A stretch of 21,362 nucleotides of DNA from positions 1 through 21,362 of IMG/VR virus record IMGVR_UViG_3300017989_002116; one strand, written 5' to 3'. The stretch comes from a virus. A program made the translations under genes and the position numbers. The notes under the pieces were generated by a model. The model did not search any database. It saw only the letters and a list, made by a program, of their open reading frames with translations, and had not been told where the DNA came from. Below are positions 862 to 18,296 of this stretch, piece after piece (position 1 is the stretch's first letter; each line of letters starts with the position of its first letter).

Positions 862-1734
862 TTATAAAGATCTGTCGATGATCCCCATACCCAACATACG
901 AGGATCCAAGCATGCAAATCCAATCTCTTCCCAACCAAAAAATCCAGCTTTCTGAACTCTAAGAAGGGTAGGATCATCATATGCCTCATAATCTTTACGA
1001 ATAGGCATTACTAGAGAATCATTAACGCTCAAGTCAAAACCAAGAATCTGGGTTTCGCCTAAAGTATCTACGGTACCATCAGCTGCGGTAATGTTAGGAT
1101 TATCCAAAGTATACGCATTGTAAACTTCACCGCCGCCAGCGATAAATTTACCAAATGCTGAAGTACTTCCATTAATGTTATACAAACCAGTGGCACCAAG
1201 ATGCTGTACCTCATGAAGAGTTACATTCCACAAACTTCCCATTCCACCAGCCTGAAAAATTTCACGTCTGGTAACCGGGTCTATATCAGTATCGGTCCAT
1301 TCACGAATATCAGCTGCATCTTCAGGTGAAACGTACAGATCTGTAAGCGTACGACCAATTCTTTTAAAACCAACGATCATTTTGTTAATAAGCTCTTTTG
1401 AAAGATAACCAGCTCCAGTAGAGCCTGGGTCAATTTCATAAATAGGAGCAGGGCGTGATCCAAGCAAACCCTTACCAAAAAATCTTGAGGTAGCCGCGGG
1501 AAGAATTACCCTCCAACCGCACTCTTCCTCGTATTCTGAAATTGCTTTGGCTGCTTTTTCCGCTGCGCGAGCTGCAATATCAATTCTCGAATCCCTAGCA
1601 TAAGTGAGTTTCCAGTCACCAGAAGCATCGATGGTGAATGTAGGAACATATACTTCTTCACCAATACCTTCGATGAAGTTCTGAGCGACATAACCAAGGC
1701 CTGGCAGTACCCACACGGGTATCTCGAAATCTTC
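862..1734 (-). CDS. Major capsid protein, exon 2 (C-terminal 290 residues)
   Basis: This is the larger part of the major capsid protein, the subunit that builds the icosahedral shell (probably HK97 fold). It starts with EDFEIPVWVLPGLG, then EEVYVPTF, a helical region rich in Ala/Lys/Glu ending EYEEECGWRV, and several short beta-like segments. It has no start of its own: the frame opens only at a TTG (1737-1735) without a Shine-Dalgarno site, directly after group I intron sequence. Joined to exon 1 (2859-3047) the predicted protein is 353 residues, a normal size for this fold. The capsid identity rests on the YVPTF and EYEEE...GWR patterns and on its position after portal, protease and scaffold. 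The exact junction is inferred from codon phase and RNA pairing. Confidence 0.85.
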   Translation of the reverse strand, partial: EDFEIPVWVLPGLGYVAQNFIEGIGEEVYVPTFTIDASGDWKLTYARDSRIDIAARAAEKAAKAISEYEEECGWRVILPAATSRFFGKGLLGSRPAPIYEIDPGSTGAGYLSKELINKMIVGFKRIGRTLTDLYVSPEDAADIREWTDTDIDPVTRREIFQAGGMGSLWNVTLHEVQHLGATGLYNINGSTSAFGKFIAGGGEVYNAYTLDNPNITAADGTVDTLGETQILGFDLSVNDSLVMPIRKDYEAYDDPTLLRVQKAGFFGWEEIGFACLDPRMLGMGIIDRSL

Positions 1735-1802
1735 CAATTGATCTGTTACTTATAATGACCTCAGCATTATCTGTTAGGCGGGGAAGCTCTTCGGCATTCC
1801 CT

Positions 1803-1820
1803 CTCGGCGTTTCCGCCGAG
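1803..1820 (-). other. GAAA-tetraloop hairpin of the group I intron
   Basis: The minus strand reads CTCGGCG, GAAA, CGCCGAG: a perfect 7-bp stem closed by a GNRA tetraloop, directly 3' of the S element. This matches the position of a P9-type hairpin, which in group I introns often docks into a receptor helix to stabilise the catalytic fold. Two further small hairpins (GGAA/UUCC and AUAAUG/CAUUAU) follow before the 3' splice region. Confidence 0.75.
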
Positions 1821-1899
1821 CTCAGACTATATCATCACCCTATCTACTCTAACACTGTTTAGGGGGAGAACGTATAGTCGTTGAGGATATAAGTTAATA

Positions 1900-2715
1900 T
1901 TATACATAATATTTAAATTTATACTGCATACATTCAGGAACAAATTCGTAGAAATTACTTACTAACCTACGTAGTTTATCCTTACCGCTAATACATATAT
2001 AATACGATTTACCAGAAGGATAGGTTCTACTATTTATCCTAAATCCCATCCCATACTTTTCAGATAAATTTCTACACAAAGAGACATTCTCTGCATAAGT
2101 AAAACACTCAGTATGTAAATCCATACGATAAACACCAAACTTCTTATTATATGTTAATGACCCATCATCACAAACCCAGATAGCCATGGAGATATTACTT
2201 AACAAATCAGATATATTATTAGGTATAATTTTAACATTGTTAGGATAAAAAATTCCTTTTATATATGTTAACCATGGGTGCGAAATTGTTGCAAACATAT
2301 AACTATCCGATACATTACATTTAATACCACAAATACAATGCGATTTTCCATCGGTCTTAATTACCTTAGAAGTAGTAAATGGCTTCAAAACTTTGTTTTT
2401 CCAAAATAAATAATCCTTTTGTTTTTCACCATGCCTAACAACAAACCGGGCGTTCTTAGCATCTTTACCCATAGTAAGTGACCCATCACCAAGCACATTA
2501 CCTATTACTATATCTTTCTGATACTCTGTAAATCCAGTCTCCTTTAACTCCTGGTAAACACTACGTGTAGAAACCCTAGTGGGTATTTTATAATAAATCA
2601 ACCAATTCCTGACAGTAGGAGCTGACACGTTATAAAATGCCCCTATAGAAGACATAGACATATGTTTATCTACATACATATCATATAATAAATCTTTTGT
2701 TACCGGTATATTCAT
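1900..2715 (-). CDS. Intron-encoded LAGLIDADG homing endonuclease
   Basis: A 271-residue protein encoded wholly inside the group I intron. Enzymes of this type cut intronless copies of the host gene so that repair copies the intron in. Two LAGLIDADG-type motifs are visible, VIGNVLGDGSL (residues 70-80) and MAIWVCDDGSL (177-187). Each ends in a Gly/Asp pair that would supply a metal-binding acid, so the protein should act as a monomer with two half-domains. Residues about 8-46 (DLLYDMYVDKHMS, SMSSIGAFYNVS, APTVRNWL) look like a helix-turn-helix that may aid DNA recognition or repression. The start ATG 2715 has only an AGGAAAG site lying inside the Q element, so its translation and intron folding may compete. 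Confidence 0.9.
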   Translation of the reverse strand: MNIPVTKDLLYDMYVDKHMSMSSIGAFYNVSAPTVRNWLIYYKIPTRVSTRSVYQELKETGFTEYQKDIVIGNVLGDGSLTMGKDAKNARFVVRHGEKQKDYLFWKNKVLKPFTTSKVIKTDGKSHCICGIKCNVSDSYMFATISHPWLTYIKGIFYPNNVKIIPNNISDLLSNISMAIWVCDDGSLTYNKKFGVYRMDLHTECFTYAENVSLCRNLSEKYGMGFRINSRTYPSGKSYYICISGKDKLRRLVSNFYEFVPECMQYKFKYYV

Positions 2716-2858
2716 ATTAACTTATCTTTCCTGCTGATTGTCCCTATCTATAAGATTTTTACCGTCTCGGTACCTATAGCCTAACAGGAGTTCCCAGCAT
2801 ATAGTTCTCTTTATTTATACTATATTACTATAGCAGTGGCCAAAGATTTAGCCACAGG

Positions 2859-3047
2859 ATAACTTGCCTGTGCGCCAGGACCTAGTCTTTCAACAGCAAA
2901 TAGCTGTCTCATAATAGAATCTCTCTCAACTGCTTGAAGGATAGGAGTAGTTAGAGCAGCAGCAAAAGCTTTATACGCCGCCAAACCCTCGTTAGTATTC
3001 ACGGCAGCGGTAGCTTTAAACAGTTTTTGCATTTCTTTTGTATCCAT
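2859..3047 (-). CDS. Major capsid protein, exon 1 (N-terminal 63 residues)
   Basis: This is the start of the major capsid protein. ATG 3047 is preceded by AGGAGG about 12 nt upstream. The coding frame stays open into the intron as far as TAG 2822-2820, but I place the exon end after codon UAU (residue 63, ...GPGAQASY). That U can form the U.G pair of P1, and joining there gives a spacing between the GPGA..Y motif and the next beta strand (PVWVLP) that suits phage capsid proteins. The N-terminal region is helical and Ala-rich (residues 10-40), then RQLFAVERLGPGAQ. Without splicing, only a 75-residue fragment would be made. Exon 2 is at 862-1734. Confidence 0.8.
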
Positions 3048-8637: not shown

Positions 8638-8665
8638 ACGCCTCTATATAAACATGGTTAGTTAA
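8638..8665 (-). repeat. 28-nt intergenic element, copy 2
   Basis: Counterpart of 6207-6234, with boxes AACTAACCAT and TAGAGGC at identical spacing on the minus strand. It overlaps the stop codon of the large terminase gene and ends just before the ribosome-binding site of the membrane-protein gene. A third copy was not found in the window. Confidence 0.5.
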
Positions 8666-11600
8666 TTTGATTTCTTCAATACGGCGCCACTTAAATTAGG
8701 ATTACCTATTTTACCGTGCCCAGAAAGTTGCCTAAAAGCGGCGTTAGGTTGTCTAGGCCTAACCATGCCGCCATTGTGTACAAATTTATCTTCTTCTTCC
8801 AATTCCCTAGTCAATTCTCTAACTCCCCAAGCCGCTAATACTAAAGCTGAATATAAATCTTTATTTTGTCCCTTCTTTGGAGTATCAAAATGTCTTACGC
8901 CACGTGCGGTTTGAGTTACTATTATATTAAGTAACTGCGATTTCAATACCCTAACTTCCTCATATAACTTTTCGGCTATAGGATCTGCTGAAGTAGGTAA
9001 TTGTGGAAATCTTAATTCCTTATGTTCGAATAAAGCCAAGCTATCAAAATTAGCATCGCTTATCCATTGCGTAGTAGGATTAACTAGCTGTAAAATTCTC
9101 CTACCATCCCTACCCTTCATATTTTCATCATCTATATCAATAATAGGTATTTTGCCGCCATAACCTTCTTGTAATAAATCTCTTATGGGTTTACCACCGC
9201 CTTGTGAATCCATAAATATTCTCTTTATATTAAATGATTCAGATAATTTTTGAATGGACTCAACCATTTGTTGAGTAGTCTTTTTCTTTAATTCTTTTAC
9301 GTATATTATTTTGTTGGGATCACCCATTTCAATTATTATTACGCCGCATGAAGCCGAACCGCCCTGGTTGGGATCAACGCCCATCACGTAACTTCTACTA
9401 GGTTTACCACTAAGCTGAATTGTAAAATTACTACCTTCCGTACACGCCTCAATCATAGACGCTTTAAAAAACCCATCACTATCGGATACCATGGCAGCTT
9501 CGTATTCCATCATAAACTCTATGCTAGACATGGTTCTTCGCGCTTCTTTAATATTCTCTTCGTCCAAAAATCCTTTAGGCAATAATTGATATGGTACTTG
9601 ATGAACAGCGTATTTGGTGTTTTCTCCTTCCTCTTCAATGGCTTTCCAATAAGATTTCATTCTACGCCACATATGATTAAATTTGAAAAATCCAGAGGAA
9701 GTCATTATCATTTTATTAGCCGTTTCCCCGATAAAATCATCTTCAGTCGCCAACCCTCTACTAATTAATTCTTCTTGGCGTTCACGCTCACGAACGCGCT
9801 GCATAGGTTCCAAAGAAACTGCCGCCATTGGACGAATAACCAAATCAATGATATCCGTCGGCATTTGCGCCAATTCATCTATCTGGATCAAATAAAAACG
9901 GGAACCACGAATCTTGGCACCATCTACTCCTATAGGCAATGCCTCAATGTAACTCCCGTTTGATTTATCCGTTCCTTTGAATTTCAAAAAACAAGTATCT
10001 GAACCACGAGTAGGCTTTTTTTCCACGGCTTCTCTTAATATAGAAGACCTTTGATAAATTTTTTCTACTTCCGAAAAAATCATTTTAGAGTTATGATTTA
10101 TAAAACCACCTGCCCAATAACAAGATTCATTATCTACTTCAATATCAATAGTTTCTGCTGAATGTGGTACAATTTCTACTGGTTTCACAAACACAATATC
10201 TTTGTATAATAATTCTTTTAATTTATAATATTCTTTATTACATACACCAATATTATCTGCAAAATCTAATAATTGATTTATTTTTTCTTTGGTAAATCCT
10301 TTATTTCTACCAAACTTATTTTTAAAATACCCCAAAAATTTATTTGAATAAATATCACCATATTTAAATAATTTAGAACAGTCCTCTACCAAAGGTCTAA
10401 CCAATATTTCAGATCCAGGAATAACATAAGAATTTTTTACTTTATTAAAATTAATACCATCAATATAATTATTTAAAGCTCTATCCTTATATTTTAATCT
10501 AAAACCAACACAATCCCTAAATTTAATCATATCTATGACATTAGTTATTCTTACTTTATAAGATGTAGCACAATTGGAATACTTATCCCTGCCATTCAAT
10601 TTTCTTAAAGAATTTTTTTTATCTATTCCCAAAGAGGAAACAATACCAAGATTTAAAAACCATGCTTGAACTTCTTTAGCTAATTGTAAAGAAGAAGTAG
10701 AGAAAGATATAGAAGCACCTCCTTGCTGTATATCCATACCACCATCCGTATCCATCAACCCACTTAAAAAAGAAATCACGTTTATTTTTGATGATCTGTT
10801 TATAACATGAGGTATCTTCTTATCTAAAGCATTAGTAGTCGTAAACCCACATTCAATAAAAAAATCACATAAATTTTTATTATAAACCTCAATCTGCCTA
10901 GTTTTTCCTTCCTTGGTATATTCAGAAAATTTATTAATATCGAAATAATTCGCCATAACATTTTTAAACTCATTAATTAAGCTGCTAGATTCTGATGTAA
11001 AATTAATTCTATATTTACCATTTTTATAAGATATACACCCATCACCAACAATTAACCCAAATAAATAAGAAATATTTTTATTTATGTTATTTGGTATTTT
11101 ACATTTATTAGTACGCCAATCTTTTAATAAACAATGTTTTGGAAATTCATCGATATTACCAAATAATTCAAATCCTTTCTTTATCACTATATTATCATTC
11201 ATAGTTACATCTTTTAAAGTTTTCCATATTAATTCACATTTATCTAAAACCAAAATCCTATGATCATATAACCCACCAATTTCAAAACCTTTTTCTGTTT
11301 TAATTATCAAACCATCTGATTTAGCATTTACCCACTTATTCAATATACTATTATTATCTTTTAAAGATTGAATCTTTGTATCATCATCTATTGAGTCGTA
11401 AAATTTCTTTGGTGAAGTTATTAAACCTTTGTTTGTAAAAATAGGCAAATAATCAAAATCGTTAAAAAAGCATTGCCTAAAAGATGGCGCTATCAAACCT
11501 ACTCTATAACCAGGATATAAAAGAGCGTGCAATACCGCATTAACGCCCAACATGAACGTCTTTCCTCCACCACGCCCCATAACCGTAATATCAAAATTCT

Positions 11601-11760
11601 TGAACCACATATCACGTAATACTATGCGCTGTATTGGAGCAAGGTCTACCCGCAAAAGATCATACGCCGCCATTACAGGATCACGTCGATAATACTCTAT
11701 TAATCCAGTGCCCTGTTGAACGACGACGTCAATATTCTCGTAAAGATCCAATCGTCCCAA
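8662..11760 (-). CDS. Terminase large subunit containing an intein
   Basis: The DNA-packaging motor: an ATPase that pumps DNA into the prohead and a nuclease that cuts it. The precursor has 1032 residues; removing the intein (97-557) leaves 571, normal for the family. Walker A is GRGGGKT (62-68), Walker B FYLIQIDE (622-629), and the coupling motif lies near MIMTSSG (685-691). The nuclease domain has D796 (VMGVDPNQGG), D851 (FMDSQGGG) and D968 (KDLYSAL). The start is TTG 11760: AGAGGAG lies just upstream, overlapping the previous gene's stop. An ATG at 11763 is in another frame and opens only 11 codons. After splicing, SFRQ joins SKMIF. The gene follows the putative small terminase and precedes portal. 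Confidence 0.95.
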   Translation of the reverse strand: MGRLDLYENIDVVVQQGTGLIEYYRRDPVMAAYDLLRVDLAPIQRIVLRDMWFKNFDITVMGRGGGKTFMLGVNAVLHALLYPGYRVGLIAPSFRQCFFNDFDYLPIFTNKGLITSPKKFYDSIDDDTKIQSLKDNNSILNKWVNAKSDGLIIKTEKGFEIGGLYDHRILVLDKCELIWKTLKDVTMNDNIVIKKGFELFGNIDEFPKHCLLKDWRTNKCKIPNNINKNISYLFGLIVGDGCISYKNGKYRINFTSESSSLINEFKNVMANYFDINKFSEYTKEGKTRQIEVYNKNLCDFFIECGFTTTNALDKKIPHVINRSSKINVISFLSGLMDTDGGMDIQQGGASISFSTSSLQLAKEVQAWFLNLGIVSSLGIDKKNSLRKLNGRDKYSNCATSYKVRITNVIDMIKFRDCVGFRLKYKDRALNNYIDGINFNKVKNSYVIPGSEILVRPLVEDCSKLFKYGDIYSNKFLGYFKNKFGRNKGFTKEKINQLLDFADNIGVCNKEYYKLKELLYKDIVFVKPVEIVPHSAETIDIEVDNESCYWAGGFINHNSKMIFSEVEKIYQRSSILREAVEKKPTRGSDTCFLKFKGTDKSNGSYIEALPIGVDGAKIRGSRFYLIQIDELAQMPTDIIDLVIRPMAAVSLEPMQRVRERERQEELISRGLATEDDFIGETANKMIMTSSGFFKFNHMWRRMKSYWKAIEEEGENTKYAVHQVPYQLLPKGFLDEENIKEARRTMSSIEFMMEYEAAMVSDSDGFFKASMIEACTEGSNFTIQLSGKPSRSYVMGVDPNQGGSASCGVIIIEMGDPNKIIYVKELKKKTTQQMVESIQKLSESFNIKRIFMDSQGGGKPIRDLLQEGYGGKIPIIDIDDENMKGRDGRRILQLVNPTTQWISDANFDSLALFEHKELRFPQLPTSADPIAEKLYEEVRVLKSQLLNIIVTQTARGVRHFDTPKKGQNKDLYSALVLAAWGVRELTRELEEEDKFVHNGGMVRPRQPNAAFRQLSGHGKIGNPNLSGAVLKKSN
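10090..11472 (-). mobile_element. Intein with LAGLIDADG endonuclease in the large terminase
   Basis: Residues 97-557 of the precursor form a 461-residue in-frame insertion. It begins with Cys97 (CFFND) and ends INHN, followed by Ser558 as the +1 nucleophile. Block A is recognisable (PIFTNKGLI) and block B has His167 (LYDHRILV) but lacks the usual Thr three residues before it. Two LAGLIDADG-type motifs mark the endonuclease: FGLIVGDGCIS (234-244) and FLSGLMDTDGG (331-341). Blocks F/G are IDIEV and CYWAGGFINHN. The insertion separates Walker A from Walker B at SFRQ/SKMIF, so unspliced protein should be inactive. Its DNA is visibly richer in A and T than the flanking terminase sequence, as expected for a transferred element. 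Confidence 0.93.
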
Positions 11761-12297: not shown

Positions 12298-12729
12298 CTA
12301 TAGTATTGATTTAAACTCGTCTAAATCCTCTACGTCAGAAAGTCTTTCTTTTATCATCACTAAAAATTCAGGAGTCATGTTATGTCCAAACAAGTATTCT
12401 ATCTCTGAACCAAAATTTAACTCTATTTGATTCATATAATACATTCTTTTATCAGTAAGTACGCTAGAATCTAGTTTAGCGTCTATCTCTTCTCTATTTT
12501 CTGATATCCAATCAGTAGCTTCTTCGGATATATAGCTATATTCGTGTTCTATACTTTCCGCTAACGAATTCTTCTTACGGAAATATATAAGTAAAGATCT
12601 AGAGATTTTATTTTTAGTAGCTTCAGAATGCTTTTTTCCTATTCTACTTTGCCTTATTTTTTCTTTAGTACAGTCACTAAGCCTATGTCCAAACGGCCTC
12701 CCTCTTGGCCTACTAATTTCATTTTCCAA
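12298..12729 (-). CDS. DNA-binding-type protein with AT-hook core and NUMOD3-like repeats
   Basis: A 143-residue protein. Residues 7-12 are RPRGRP, a match to the AT-hook core that binds the minor groove. Residues about 14-46 hold two units of the NUMOD3 pattern, HRLSDCTKEKIRQS and GKKHSEATKNKISRS. NUMOD3 is known as a sequence-specific DNA-binding module in GIY-YIG and HNH homing endonucleases. No nuclease motif follows; the remaining 95 residues are acidic and helical. It may be a homing-endonuclease DNA-binding module reused by the phage, perhaps for packaging-site recognition since it precedes the terminase genes. It could also be the remnant of an endonuclease. A GGGGTGAT site is rather far from the ATG, so expression may rely on coupling to the NusG-like gene 6 nt upstream. 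Confidence 0.75.
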   Translation of the reverse strand: MENEISRPRGRPFGHRLSDCTKEKIRQSRIGKKHSEATKNKISRSLLIYFRKKNSLAESIEHEYSYISEEATDWISENREEIDAKLDSSVLTDKRMYYMNQIELNFGSEIEYLFGHNMTPEFLVMIKERLSDVEDLDEFKSIL

Positions 12730-16193: not shown

Positions 16194-18296
16194 TTATAAA
16201 ACAGCAGCCATTAAACACCCATGAGCAACGCAAGTCATAGGATCTTTGGCTTTTCTAATTTCCTTTACTTCAAAAGGAAAACTCTTATTATTAGACTCCT
16301 TATTAAATTTTTCAACGAATCCACCAGCCAAAGTCAGCCCGCCAGAAACTACAATGGGGATTGGCTCTCTAAAAGCCGGTAATTTCGATGAATCCAGTTT
16401 ATATACTATATTATCCAACGTGTAATTAATCAATACGTTGTAATAAACCGCAATCGCTTCCTGAATCTTACCTTTAGGTTCTATAAGATTTATTTCAGAC
16501 TCTTCTTTTTCAATCTGAACCATGGATTGCGTTAAATCCAAAGCTTTACCAACCGACGCATCAATCCAATCACCGCCTTTAGTCAATGAAAATTCAGTAA
16601 TTGGATCACCTTCATATACCACAGCTATGTTCACCATTCCAGCTCCACAGTTGTGAATTGTCAAAAAAGGCCCAGAAAAGGAATGATCGTCTTTAACGTT
16701 TATATCATATACTATGCCATCATATTCTTCATATTCTATGGACTGAACACGCGTACAACAAAAATCACCATCTATAAATAATCTTTCTGTATACTTACTA
16801 TTAGTACAATCCATATTACTTATTATAGATGATAATGATGCAAATAACTCTTTATCTCCACTATTAACCAACCATTCATCTTTTTTACCTTCTATAATTC
16901 TACCATCATCCAATATATGTGATCTAGGCGGTCTAAACGTTATACTAGCGGCTATACCTATTCTGGAAAACAATTGTTTACATAACCAAATTAATCTCGT
17001 TGAAGTATTGTAAAAACTTATAGATCCGCTACTTATGGCACCATCAGATCTTATTAAACCAGCTAATAAATTTATACAATCAGATTTGCCTATTTTACTA
17101 ATATCCCATGGATAATTTTTTTCTGAACCATAATAACAATGATTTCTAAACCAACTAGCAAGTCCTTTACTATAACACTTTATACGTGAACAATTATCCC
17201 CATGATCAACTATAGTACATTTTTTTTCAAAACTATTTTTTAATATATCAATTACATCATTTATATTGGATATTTCTTCTTTATTAAAATCAAATTGAAT
17301 ACCACCCTCACGTTCACAGATACTACCATCACCTAAAAAGTAACCTATCAATCTTTGGACATCCCCGCCGACATAAACTTGTTTTTTATTATATTCATTA
17401 GATGAAGTTACTCTCTCACATATAGTCATAGTTGGTTTTCTGCCGGCCCTGTCTTGCCTAACAATAGGCTCACCTACAATATCACCTACTTTCAAACTTT
17501 CACAACCAATCCATACCCAGTTACCATTTCTATTAACTAACAGTTCATGATCATCTACAAATTTATAATAATCAGTACTATCTTTATAACCCTGTAATTG
17601 TATTTTGGTACTAATACCTTTAAATTGCTTGGTTATTATAGCATTTATATCTTTAAATCTACCTTTATGCGTTAAAACTTTATCACCTTCTTTTATATCC
17701 TCAATATTAACGATACCTTTATCGGTATAAATTTTAGTTCCTGGAACCACACAACTAATACACATGCCAGTAAGATTATCATCCAAAAGTTCCGAGAAAG
17801 CTATTGCAAAAGCTTCATTCAGAGAATCTGGCATAAATCCCATCTCCCTCAAATATGCTTTCATCATTTCCGTATGATAAAAAATATCAAAATCACCATC
17901 CAATGGTTCTGCTGGAATTGAAAAAACTATTTTATCTTGATCTTCCGGCGTTCCAACCAAACTCTTGATAATAAGTTTTATCATAGGTAAAGAAGTTTTC
18001 TCTTTGGGAGATAAAACACCTTTACTCATGGGTCTTCTCGCAACCATGTTTCTTTCATTGGCCATTCTAAGAGCATCTTCGCCAACTACTACGAAATCAT
18101 TCCCATCTATAATAAAATTGGCTTTTTGACTTTCTAATGACATTTTAATACTCTTACGATTTATTTCCGATTTTGGGGTCATCCTGAAAAAAGCATCCCT
18201 TTGCTTTTTATACATAGGATTACCGCCCTCATCCATCATTGCAGATACAAGCATGTTAGTGCCTATATCCAACCCTACGCCTTTAATGCTTGACAT
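16194..18296 (-). CDS. Actin-like ATPase containing an intein
   Basis: The precursor has 700 residues; removing the intein (182-549) leaves 332, the usual size for bacterial and phage actins. Phosphate-1 loop is GLDIGTNMLVSA (8-19). Phosphate-2 becomes MCISCGAGMVNIAVV after splicing. The adenosine motif is IVVSGGLTLAGGF (648-660). The protein should polymerise with ATP into filaments, as do ParM, AlfA and phage actins such as Alp6A and AlpC, which position or segregate DNA. Closest relation (ParM-like or MreB-like) cannot be decided by eye. AGGAGG lies 8 nt before ATG 18296. It follows a long coiled-coil protein gene by 12 nt, a possible filament partner. Confidence 0.9.
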   Translation of the reverse strand: MSSIKGVGLDIGTNMLVSAMMDEGGNPMYKKQRDAFFRMTPKSEINRKSIKMSLESQKANFIIDGNDFVVVGEDALRMANERNMVARRPMSKGVLSPKEKTSLPMIKLIIKSLVGTPEDQDKIVFSIPAEPLDGDFDIFYHTEMMKAYLREMGFMPDSLNEAFAIAFSELLDDNLTGMCISCVVPGTKIYTDKGIVNIEDIKEGDKVLTHKGRFKDINAIITKQFKGISTKIQLQGYKDSTDYYKFVDDHELLVNRNGNWVWIGCESLKVGDIVGEPIVRQDRAGRKPTMTICERVTSSNEYNKKQVYVGGDVQRLIGYFLGDGSICEREGGIQFDFNKEEISNINDVIDILKNSFEKKCTIVDHGDNCSRIKCYSKGLASWFRNHCYYGSEKNYPWDISKIGKSDCINLLAGLIRSDGAISSGSISFYNTSTRLIWLCKQLFSRIGIAASITFRPPRSHILDDGRIIEGKKDEWLVNSGDKELFASLSSIISNMDCTNSKYTERLFIDGDFCCTRVQSIEYEEYDGIVYDINVKDDHSFSGPFLTIHNCGAGMVNIAVVYEGDPITEFSLTKGGDWIDASVGKALDLTQSMVQIEKEESEINLIEPKGKIQEAIAVYYNVLINYTLDNIVYKLDSSKLPAFREPIPIVVSGGLTLAGGFVEKFNKESNNKSFPFEVKEIRKAKDPMTCVAHGCLMAAVL
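16650..17753 (-). mobile_element. Intein with LAGLIDADG endonuclease in the actin-like ATPase
   Basis: Residues 182-549 are a 368-residue in-frame insertion starting Cys182 (CVVPGTKIYTDKG, block A) and ending TIHN, followed by Cys550 as the +1 nucleophile. Further block A/N2 pattern is IEDIKEGDKVLT. Block B contains His250 (FVDDHELLV), with Val where Thr is usual. The endonuclease motifs are LIGYFLGDGSI (316-326) and NLLAGLIRSDGA (409-420). Block F is VYDINVKDDHSFSGPF. It interrupts the phosphate-2 loop between CIS and GAGM, so the ATP site forms only after splicing. Conserved nucleotide-binding motifs are a typical intein target because loss by deletion would be lethal to the protein. Confidence 0.95.

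Follow-up and report, generated by a model that had tools for sequence, protein, structure and literature searches.

The splicing of an intron in a phage major capsid gene has been demonstrated in vivo for mycobacteriophage LittleE, by RT-PCR and N-terminal sequencing (PMC3706429). The intron described here lies on a 21.4-kb viral fragment from IMG/VR (21,362 nucleotides, the whole stretch of DNA that was analysed, below called the window) belonging to an uncultured and unclassified phage. The two have in common a major capsid gene as host, a LAGLIDADG ORF, a first exon ending in U, an intron ending in G and a sporadic occurrence in close relatives. The LittleE intron differs in its length of 819 nt, an ORF on the opposite strand, a tentative group I assignment and a single site (PMC3706429), whereas the window ORF is situated on the coding strand in P6 and the intron belongs to a family with many sites. 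The crAss-like phages of the Delta and Zeta groups resemble the window phage in that group I introns interrupt core genes, the capsid gene among them, and that the terminase contains inteins; the capsid ORF of one Zeta-group phage consists of five fragments, according to the part of that report used here (PMC7886860). These phages are from the human gut and are unrelated to the window phage, and exons down to 15-29 nt and within-gene intron mosaics distinguish the window family from what that part of the report describes.

A many-intron capsid gene is also found in Faustovirus E12, with five group I introns, some carrying homing endonucleases, but this is a giant eukaryotic virus with GIY-YIG endonucleases and with spliceosome-like introns mixed in (PMC6247863). 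In mirusviruses, morphogenesis genes and chiefly the capsid gene are intron hot spots, the positions vary between close relatives and, as a further likeness, the endonucleases target a given gene; these are however spliceosomal introns of eukaryotic viruses, and no ribozymes are involved (PMC12768974). Two to three group I introns per gene, separated by small internal exons, occur in Bastillevirinae phages and Twort, but in genes for DNA polymerase, terminase, ribonucleotide reductase and thymidylate synthase; the word capsid is absent from that source (PMC11878797). Since the LittleE intron, with its demonstrated splicing, and the crAss-like capsid introns are already known, the window intron is not a new phenomenon. 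Phage capsid introns, several per gene included, have been published, and the window adds one more, from an unusually rich family that stands out by its site density, its very short exons and its signs of intron traffic within one gene.

The insert in the window is very probably a group I intron, self-splicing and mobile, that has the phage major capsid gene as its host; its splicing, endonuclease activity and homing are predictions from sequence. On the minus strand the reading frame of this gene falls into two parts, exon 1 starting at 3047 and exon 2 ending at 862. The following features were assigned:

2850..3047, minus strand: exon 1 of the major capsid gene, 66 codons, ending ...YPVA with U2850 as last base (translation and tblastn against uninterrupted homologues)
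2849..1735, minus strand: group I intron, 1115 nt, first base A2849, terminal G1735 (Rfam match in the 3' half, covariance model, covariation)
862..1734, minus strand: exon 2 of the major capsid gene, 290 codons and stop
2850..2855, minus strand: 5' strand of P1, GUGGCU in exon 1, with U.G at the splice site, pairing with 2841..2836
2836..2841, minus strand: 3' strand of P1 (internal guide), GGCCAC, partner of GUGGCU
2842..2849, minus strand: P10 strand AAAUCUUU in the P1 loop, 8 bp with exon 2 GAAGAUUU (1734..1727)
2820..2833, minus strand: P2 hairpin CUAUA-GUAA-UAUAG, covarying in four relatives
2804..2809, minus strand: 5' strand of P3, GAGAAC, pairing with 1871..1866
2732..2799, minus strand: P4 (UGCUG 2799..2795 with CAGCA 2736..2732), enclosing P5
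1900..2715, minus strand: homing endonuclease ORF, 271 aa, in the P6 loop, with an HTH-like N-terminal part and a LAGLIDADG_2 domain
1866..1879, minus strand: R element, with the 5' strand of P7 (GACUAU, 1879..1874) and the 3' strand of P3 (GUUCUC, 1871..1866)
1840..1865, minus strand: P8 hairpin, outer pairs CCCUA/UAGGG, of which four out of five change on both sides in the five site-66 introns
1825..1830, minus strand: S element, 3' strand of P7, AUAGUC (Rfam match, covariation)
1803..1820, minus strand: P9 hairpin CUCGGCG-GAAA-CGCCGAG, four of seven pairs changing on both sides
1759..1801, minus strand: P9.1 (1801..1781) and P9.2 (1778..1759), preceding the conserved 3' tail AGUAACA

The exons joined in silico encode a capsid protein of 356 aa, and the junction reads ...GAQASYPVAEDFEIPVW... 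(QASYPVA|EDFEIP). This protein, whose in-frame splicing is an in silico result, is colinear with 101 uninterrupted homologues, which read ...SYPVAEDFEIP... without a gap across the junction. The corrected P1 comprises 6 bp and ends in U.G, and the 8-nt P10 strand follows it directly; P10 likewise has 8 bp in the related intron of locus L142. U2850.G2841 in P1 and G1735 at the 3' end of the intron follow the group I splice-site rule, as do the U and terminal G of the other well-resolved introns of the family. The same intron is carried by a second contig, L002. The original prediction had placed the 3' splice site after G1735, which was right, and the 5' site after U2859, based on a UUAU/GUAA P1. 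The latter choice was dropped: it loses the PVA that is present in the homologues and pairs the exon with the loop of P2, GUAA being the tetraloop of this covarying hairpin, whereas U2850 restores PVA and fits both the 6-bp P1 and P10. Homologues consequently do not continue from QASY directly into EDFEIP, the continuity by which the predicted junction was to be judged, because exon 1 runs 9 nt past the proposed site; the joined protein predicted at 353 residues has 356. For the suggested P10 pairing GAAGAU/AUCUUU the partner was correct, but the true helix is longer.

The host gene had been taken for the major capsid gene, which was supported by matches of the joined protein to the PHROG 2522 major head protein (E 1.7e-13) and to the major capsid protein Gp27 in PDB 6wkk (E 6.1e-16). 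The AlphaFold2 model of the capsid protein was too poor (pLDDT 37) for judging the HK97 fold. On the minus strand the putative gene order is portal, scaffold-like, decoration-like and capsid gene, and an intein-bearing terminase gene is also present. No cultured relatives were found by tblastn among 50,697 phage records, and the three genome contigs that could hint at a host came from unrelated bins (Geobacteraceae, WOR-3, Fermentibacteria) and were uninformative. Two members of the capsid family (L216, L219) are located on contigs of nearly 300 kb; the phage group therefore includes jumbo-sized phages. The large terminase subunit of the window (8662-11760, minus strand, 1032 aa) contains an internal intein with a LAGLIDADG_3 domain, and an actin-like protein (16194-18296, minus strand, 700 aa), matching the Pfam family Volactin named from Haloferax, contains a LAGLIDADG intein, so that together with the capsid intron the fragment has one intron and two inteins. 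A small protein encoded at 12298-12729 (minus strand) carries NUMOD3, a motif by which homing endonucleases bind DNA, and no recognisable nuclease domain.

Judged on its sequence, the insert is a group I intron: the core P3-P8 was found with its P, Q, R and S elements. The window is matched by Rfam model RF00028 at 2000..1803 (minus strand) with an E-value of 7.5e-7, so the proposed Infernal search did return a hit, but its 38.8 bits stay below the gathering score of 50 bits. The low score is explained by the ORF splitting the core and by the divergence of the family; related introns score low as well, no matches were obtained for them at the Rfam gathering thresholds, and the endonuclease-free codon-66 intron of L291 was missed by Rfam. 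In the window every core helix pairs. The pairing of P3 (GAGAAC/GUUCUC), P4 (UGCUG/CAGCA) and P7 (GACUAU/AUAGUC) and the GAAA-capped stem after S, which is P9, were thereby confirmed from the original prediction together with its group I assignment, for which the RF00028 match, the helices and the covariation all speak. The tail pattern AGUAACA occurred in 11 IMG/VR stretches, eight of them in capsid genes of the same family.

Covariation was analysed with relatives inserted at the same place, after codon 66 (L142, L068, L235/L236 and L291). In three homologous introns with their ORFs removed, 95.8% of the cells pair and 20 pairs change on both sides, against a mean of 7.4 after shuffling (0 of 500 shuffles as high) and 0-2 when the partners were slid by 1-3 columns. 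Across the five site-66 introns, 13 two-sided pairs were counted in P1, P2, P3, P8 and P9, with 4 of 215 cells unpaired; two of the five relatives have a single unpaired cell in P7. P2 is CUAUA-GUAA-UAUAG in the window and UUACA-GCAA-UGUAA in L142. Four of the six pairs of the corrected P1 are invariant among five related introns, one is compensatory and one is unpaired in two sequences. The pair at position -4 is G-C in the window, L142 and L291 and C-G in L068 and L235: the valine codon is GTG with a guide C in three phages and GTC with a guide G in two, so codon and guide base switch together and exon and intron covary. An own covariance model was built for the 3' half of the intron from 15 training sequences, one of which was the window, matched by it at 1885..1739 with an E-value of 1.3e-24. 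The model also detected the codon-66 intron of L291, itself a training sequence, and recovered held-out introns at capsid sites 58, 71, 81, 94 and 137 (E 4.7e-14 or better) and in another gene; it gave zero matches in the intronless capsid loci searched.

The ORF in P6 is a predicted LAGLIDADG homing endonuclease and could be inactive despite its intact motifs. It was matched by Pfam PF03161 (LAGLIDADG_2) with 122 bits (E 2.8e-35; cut-off 25 bits), which upholds the placement of an endonuclease ORF in P6, and it has sequence relatives in PDB (6x1j, I-SceI). Two motifs, LGDGS and CDDGS, are present; their aspartates D77 and D183 are invariant in nine relatives, and the frame is open. The helix-turn-helix-like character of the N-terminal part was judged by eye only. 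An endonuclease ORF in the P6 loop is also known from the td group I intron of phage T4, which differs in having a GIY-YIG enzyme and another host gene. At the codon-66 site the ORF lies in P6 in the window, L142 and L235, a diverged LAGLIDADG_2 ORF lies between the P7 and P3 strands in L068, and L291 has a natural ORF-free intron of 280 nt. The endonucleases are homologous between sites and distinct per site, with the highest identity at equal sites (50-57% at site 66, 72-74% at 81, 57% at 94 and 69% at 137). In one intron class (L050, L092, L068, L271 and others) the endonuclease ORF begins inside the Q element, where AUGGACAAUCAGCAGG encodes MDNQQ; core helix P4 therefore doubles as coding sequence.

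Capsid loci were surveyed with both protein ends as queries, which avoids search bias. Of 130 distinct loci, some of them near-copies, 101 were uninterrupted and 22 interrupted, the remainder being cut by contig ends or carrying simple deletions. About 12 intron sites were found, after codons 58, 61, 66, 70.67, 80.33, 89, 93.67, 137.33, 205, ~209, 214 and 333. Seven of the 12 fall inside 36 codons (P 0.003), and the mean DNA conservation at the sites is 0.847 compared with 0.792 for random sets, none of 2000 being as high. Capsid introns had been described as uncommon, which holds for phages generally but not here, where about one in six capsid loci carries at least one. A first survey with exon 2 as query had put all sites within codons 58-81; this was search bias, because introns within exon 2 lower the rank of a locus, and the end queries gave sites up to codon 333. 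L175 and L048 were rejected as interrupted genes: both are contiguous with about 31-45 internal codons missing, as assembly errors or defective alleles. No in-frame junction could be fixed for three inserts, which were not relied on: in L291 the fourth one and in L294 the one at codon 137, where a G at the intron end does not fit the frame, and in L287 the second one (codon ~209). Introns of the same family with HTH and LAGLIDADG_2 ORFs also occur in a second gene (L094, L097, L099); L097, with two model matches, is on the contig of L294 and L094 on that of L178. A different group I intron (L083, RF00028 82.3 bits) is located in a cold-shock-like protein gene on the contig of L050.

Empty and occupied alleles could be compared directly at two sites. 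At codon 70.67, L107 (empty) and L092 (occupied) share 94% DNA identity and the gap falls exactly at the predicted splice sites (8746/9934); at codon 80.33, the gap between L139 (empty) and L154 (occupied) likewise coincides with the predicted sites (4271/4998). Presence and absence at one site in close relatives were found at these two other sites, the empty allele of the window site being less close: the search gave no intronless allele nearly identical to that of the window phage, and the nearest empty junctions have 2 mismatches in 30 nt. Placed on the capsid tree, the intron label takes 17 changes for 19 rows and is as scattered as shuffled labels. Empty and occupied alleles, site-specific endonuclease lineages and scattered distribution are together the pattern of homing, from which we infer that homing takes place.

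The densest case is L271 (3005-6369), in which four group I introns are inserted within 98 coding nt, at codons 61, 70.67, 80.33 and 93.67, leaving internal exons of 29, 29 and 40 nt; splicing in silico restores a complete 356-aa protein. In two of the four, about 97 nt of ribozyme core are identical while the guide sequences differ, and one of this pair has almost the same 3' end as a third intron. L271 is known from one metagenome contig with internal repeats, and the other multi-intron genes likewise come from single contigs; provided that the assembly is correct, the shared stretches would reflect copying from one intron to another within the gene, or recombination between them. Whether a single intron family is radiating in the capsid gene by hopping, copying and recombining between neighbouring sites is evenly balanced. 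If so, L271 and the homologous but site-distinct endonucleases would form a natural record of ongoing intron transposition and retargeting.

In the proposed mechanism, the end of exon 1 (...GUGGCU) would pair at the RNA level with the guide GGCCAC as P1, and a bound guanosine would attack after U2850. P10 would then align exon 2 GAAGAUUU, and the exons would be joined after G1735, giving the normal 356-aa capsid protein. At the DNA level, when relatives infect the same cell, their intronless capsid alleles are most likely cut at this position by the LAGLIDADG enzyme from the P6 ORF, and repair of the cut allele would copy the intron in. The capsid gene would be a standing target, in which related introns with related endonucleases occupy about 12 places, for the most part where its DNA is best conserved.

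The intron might be retained not as a purely selfish element but by harming rivals, its endonuclease cutting the capsid gene of intronless co-infecting phages. In phage PhiPA3 an intron endonuclease interferes with a co-infecting relative, as far as the part of the source used here goes (PMC11620839), and the sites on conserved capsid DNA and the coexistence of empty and occupied alleles agree with such a role. Selfish homing alone gives the same pattern, however, and we regard this added role as possible, though rather unlikely. Splicing could also depend on the endonuclease acting as a maturase and not be autonomous. Some LAGLIDADG proteins are maturases and most introns of the family retain their ORF, but the frame is also restored by ORF-free introns, one of 280 nt in L291 at the site of the window intron and others at different sites in L271 and L294; the ribozyme architecture therefore needs no protein in cis, and dependence on the ORF product appears improbable.

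It is very unlikely that the intron has degenerated past splicing, leaving a broken capsid gene or a truncated exon-1 product. The Rfam score below gathering and the fact that splicing is a prediction from sequence would allow this, but all core helices of the window pair, compensatory changes at P1, P2, P3, P8 and P9 show selection for structure, P1 and P10 match the exon sequences, neither capsid exon is damaged, and the ORF remains uninterrupted and retains both motif aspartates. An arrangement with no splicing at all, whether two separate capsid genes, an endonuclease gene standing by itself or a false join in the assembly, is hardly credible: exon 1 read on its own does stay open for 75 codons, up to 2820, but 101 loci have one uninterrupted capsid gene, a group I core is present, the same intron recurs in L002, insertion is clean against empty alleles at two other sites, and independent introns occupy the same site in L142, L235, L291 and L068.

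The preferred reading thus remains a mobile, probably self-splicing intron. The window provides a well-resolved capsid intron, and the surrounding family is the more useful of the two. For annotators it is a warning: capsid genes of such phages look broken because the general Rfam model misses or under-scores their introns. The family offers one highly expressed essential gene with about 12 sites, in which occupied, endonuclease-free and empty states are found together, as natural material for testing how group I introns move to new sites and how their endonucleases are retargeted. It would likewise allow testing how a late gene copes with several self-splicing reactions in series when each virion needs hundreds of copies of its product.
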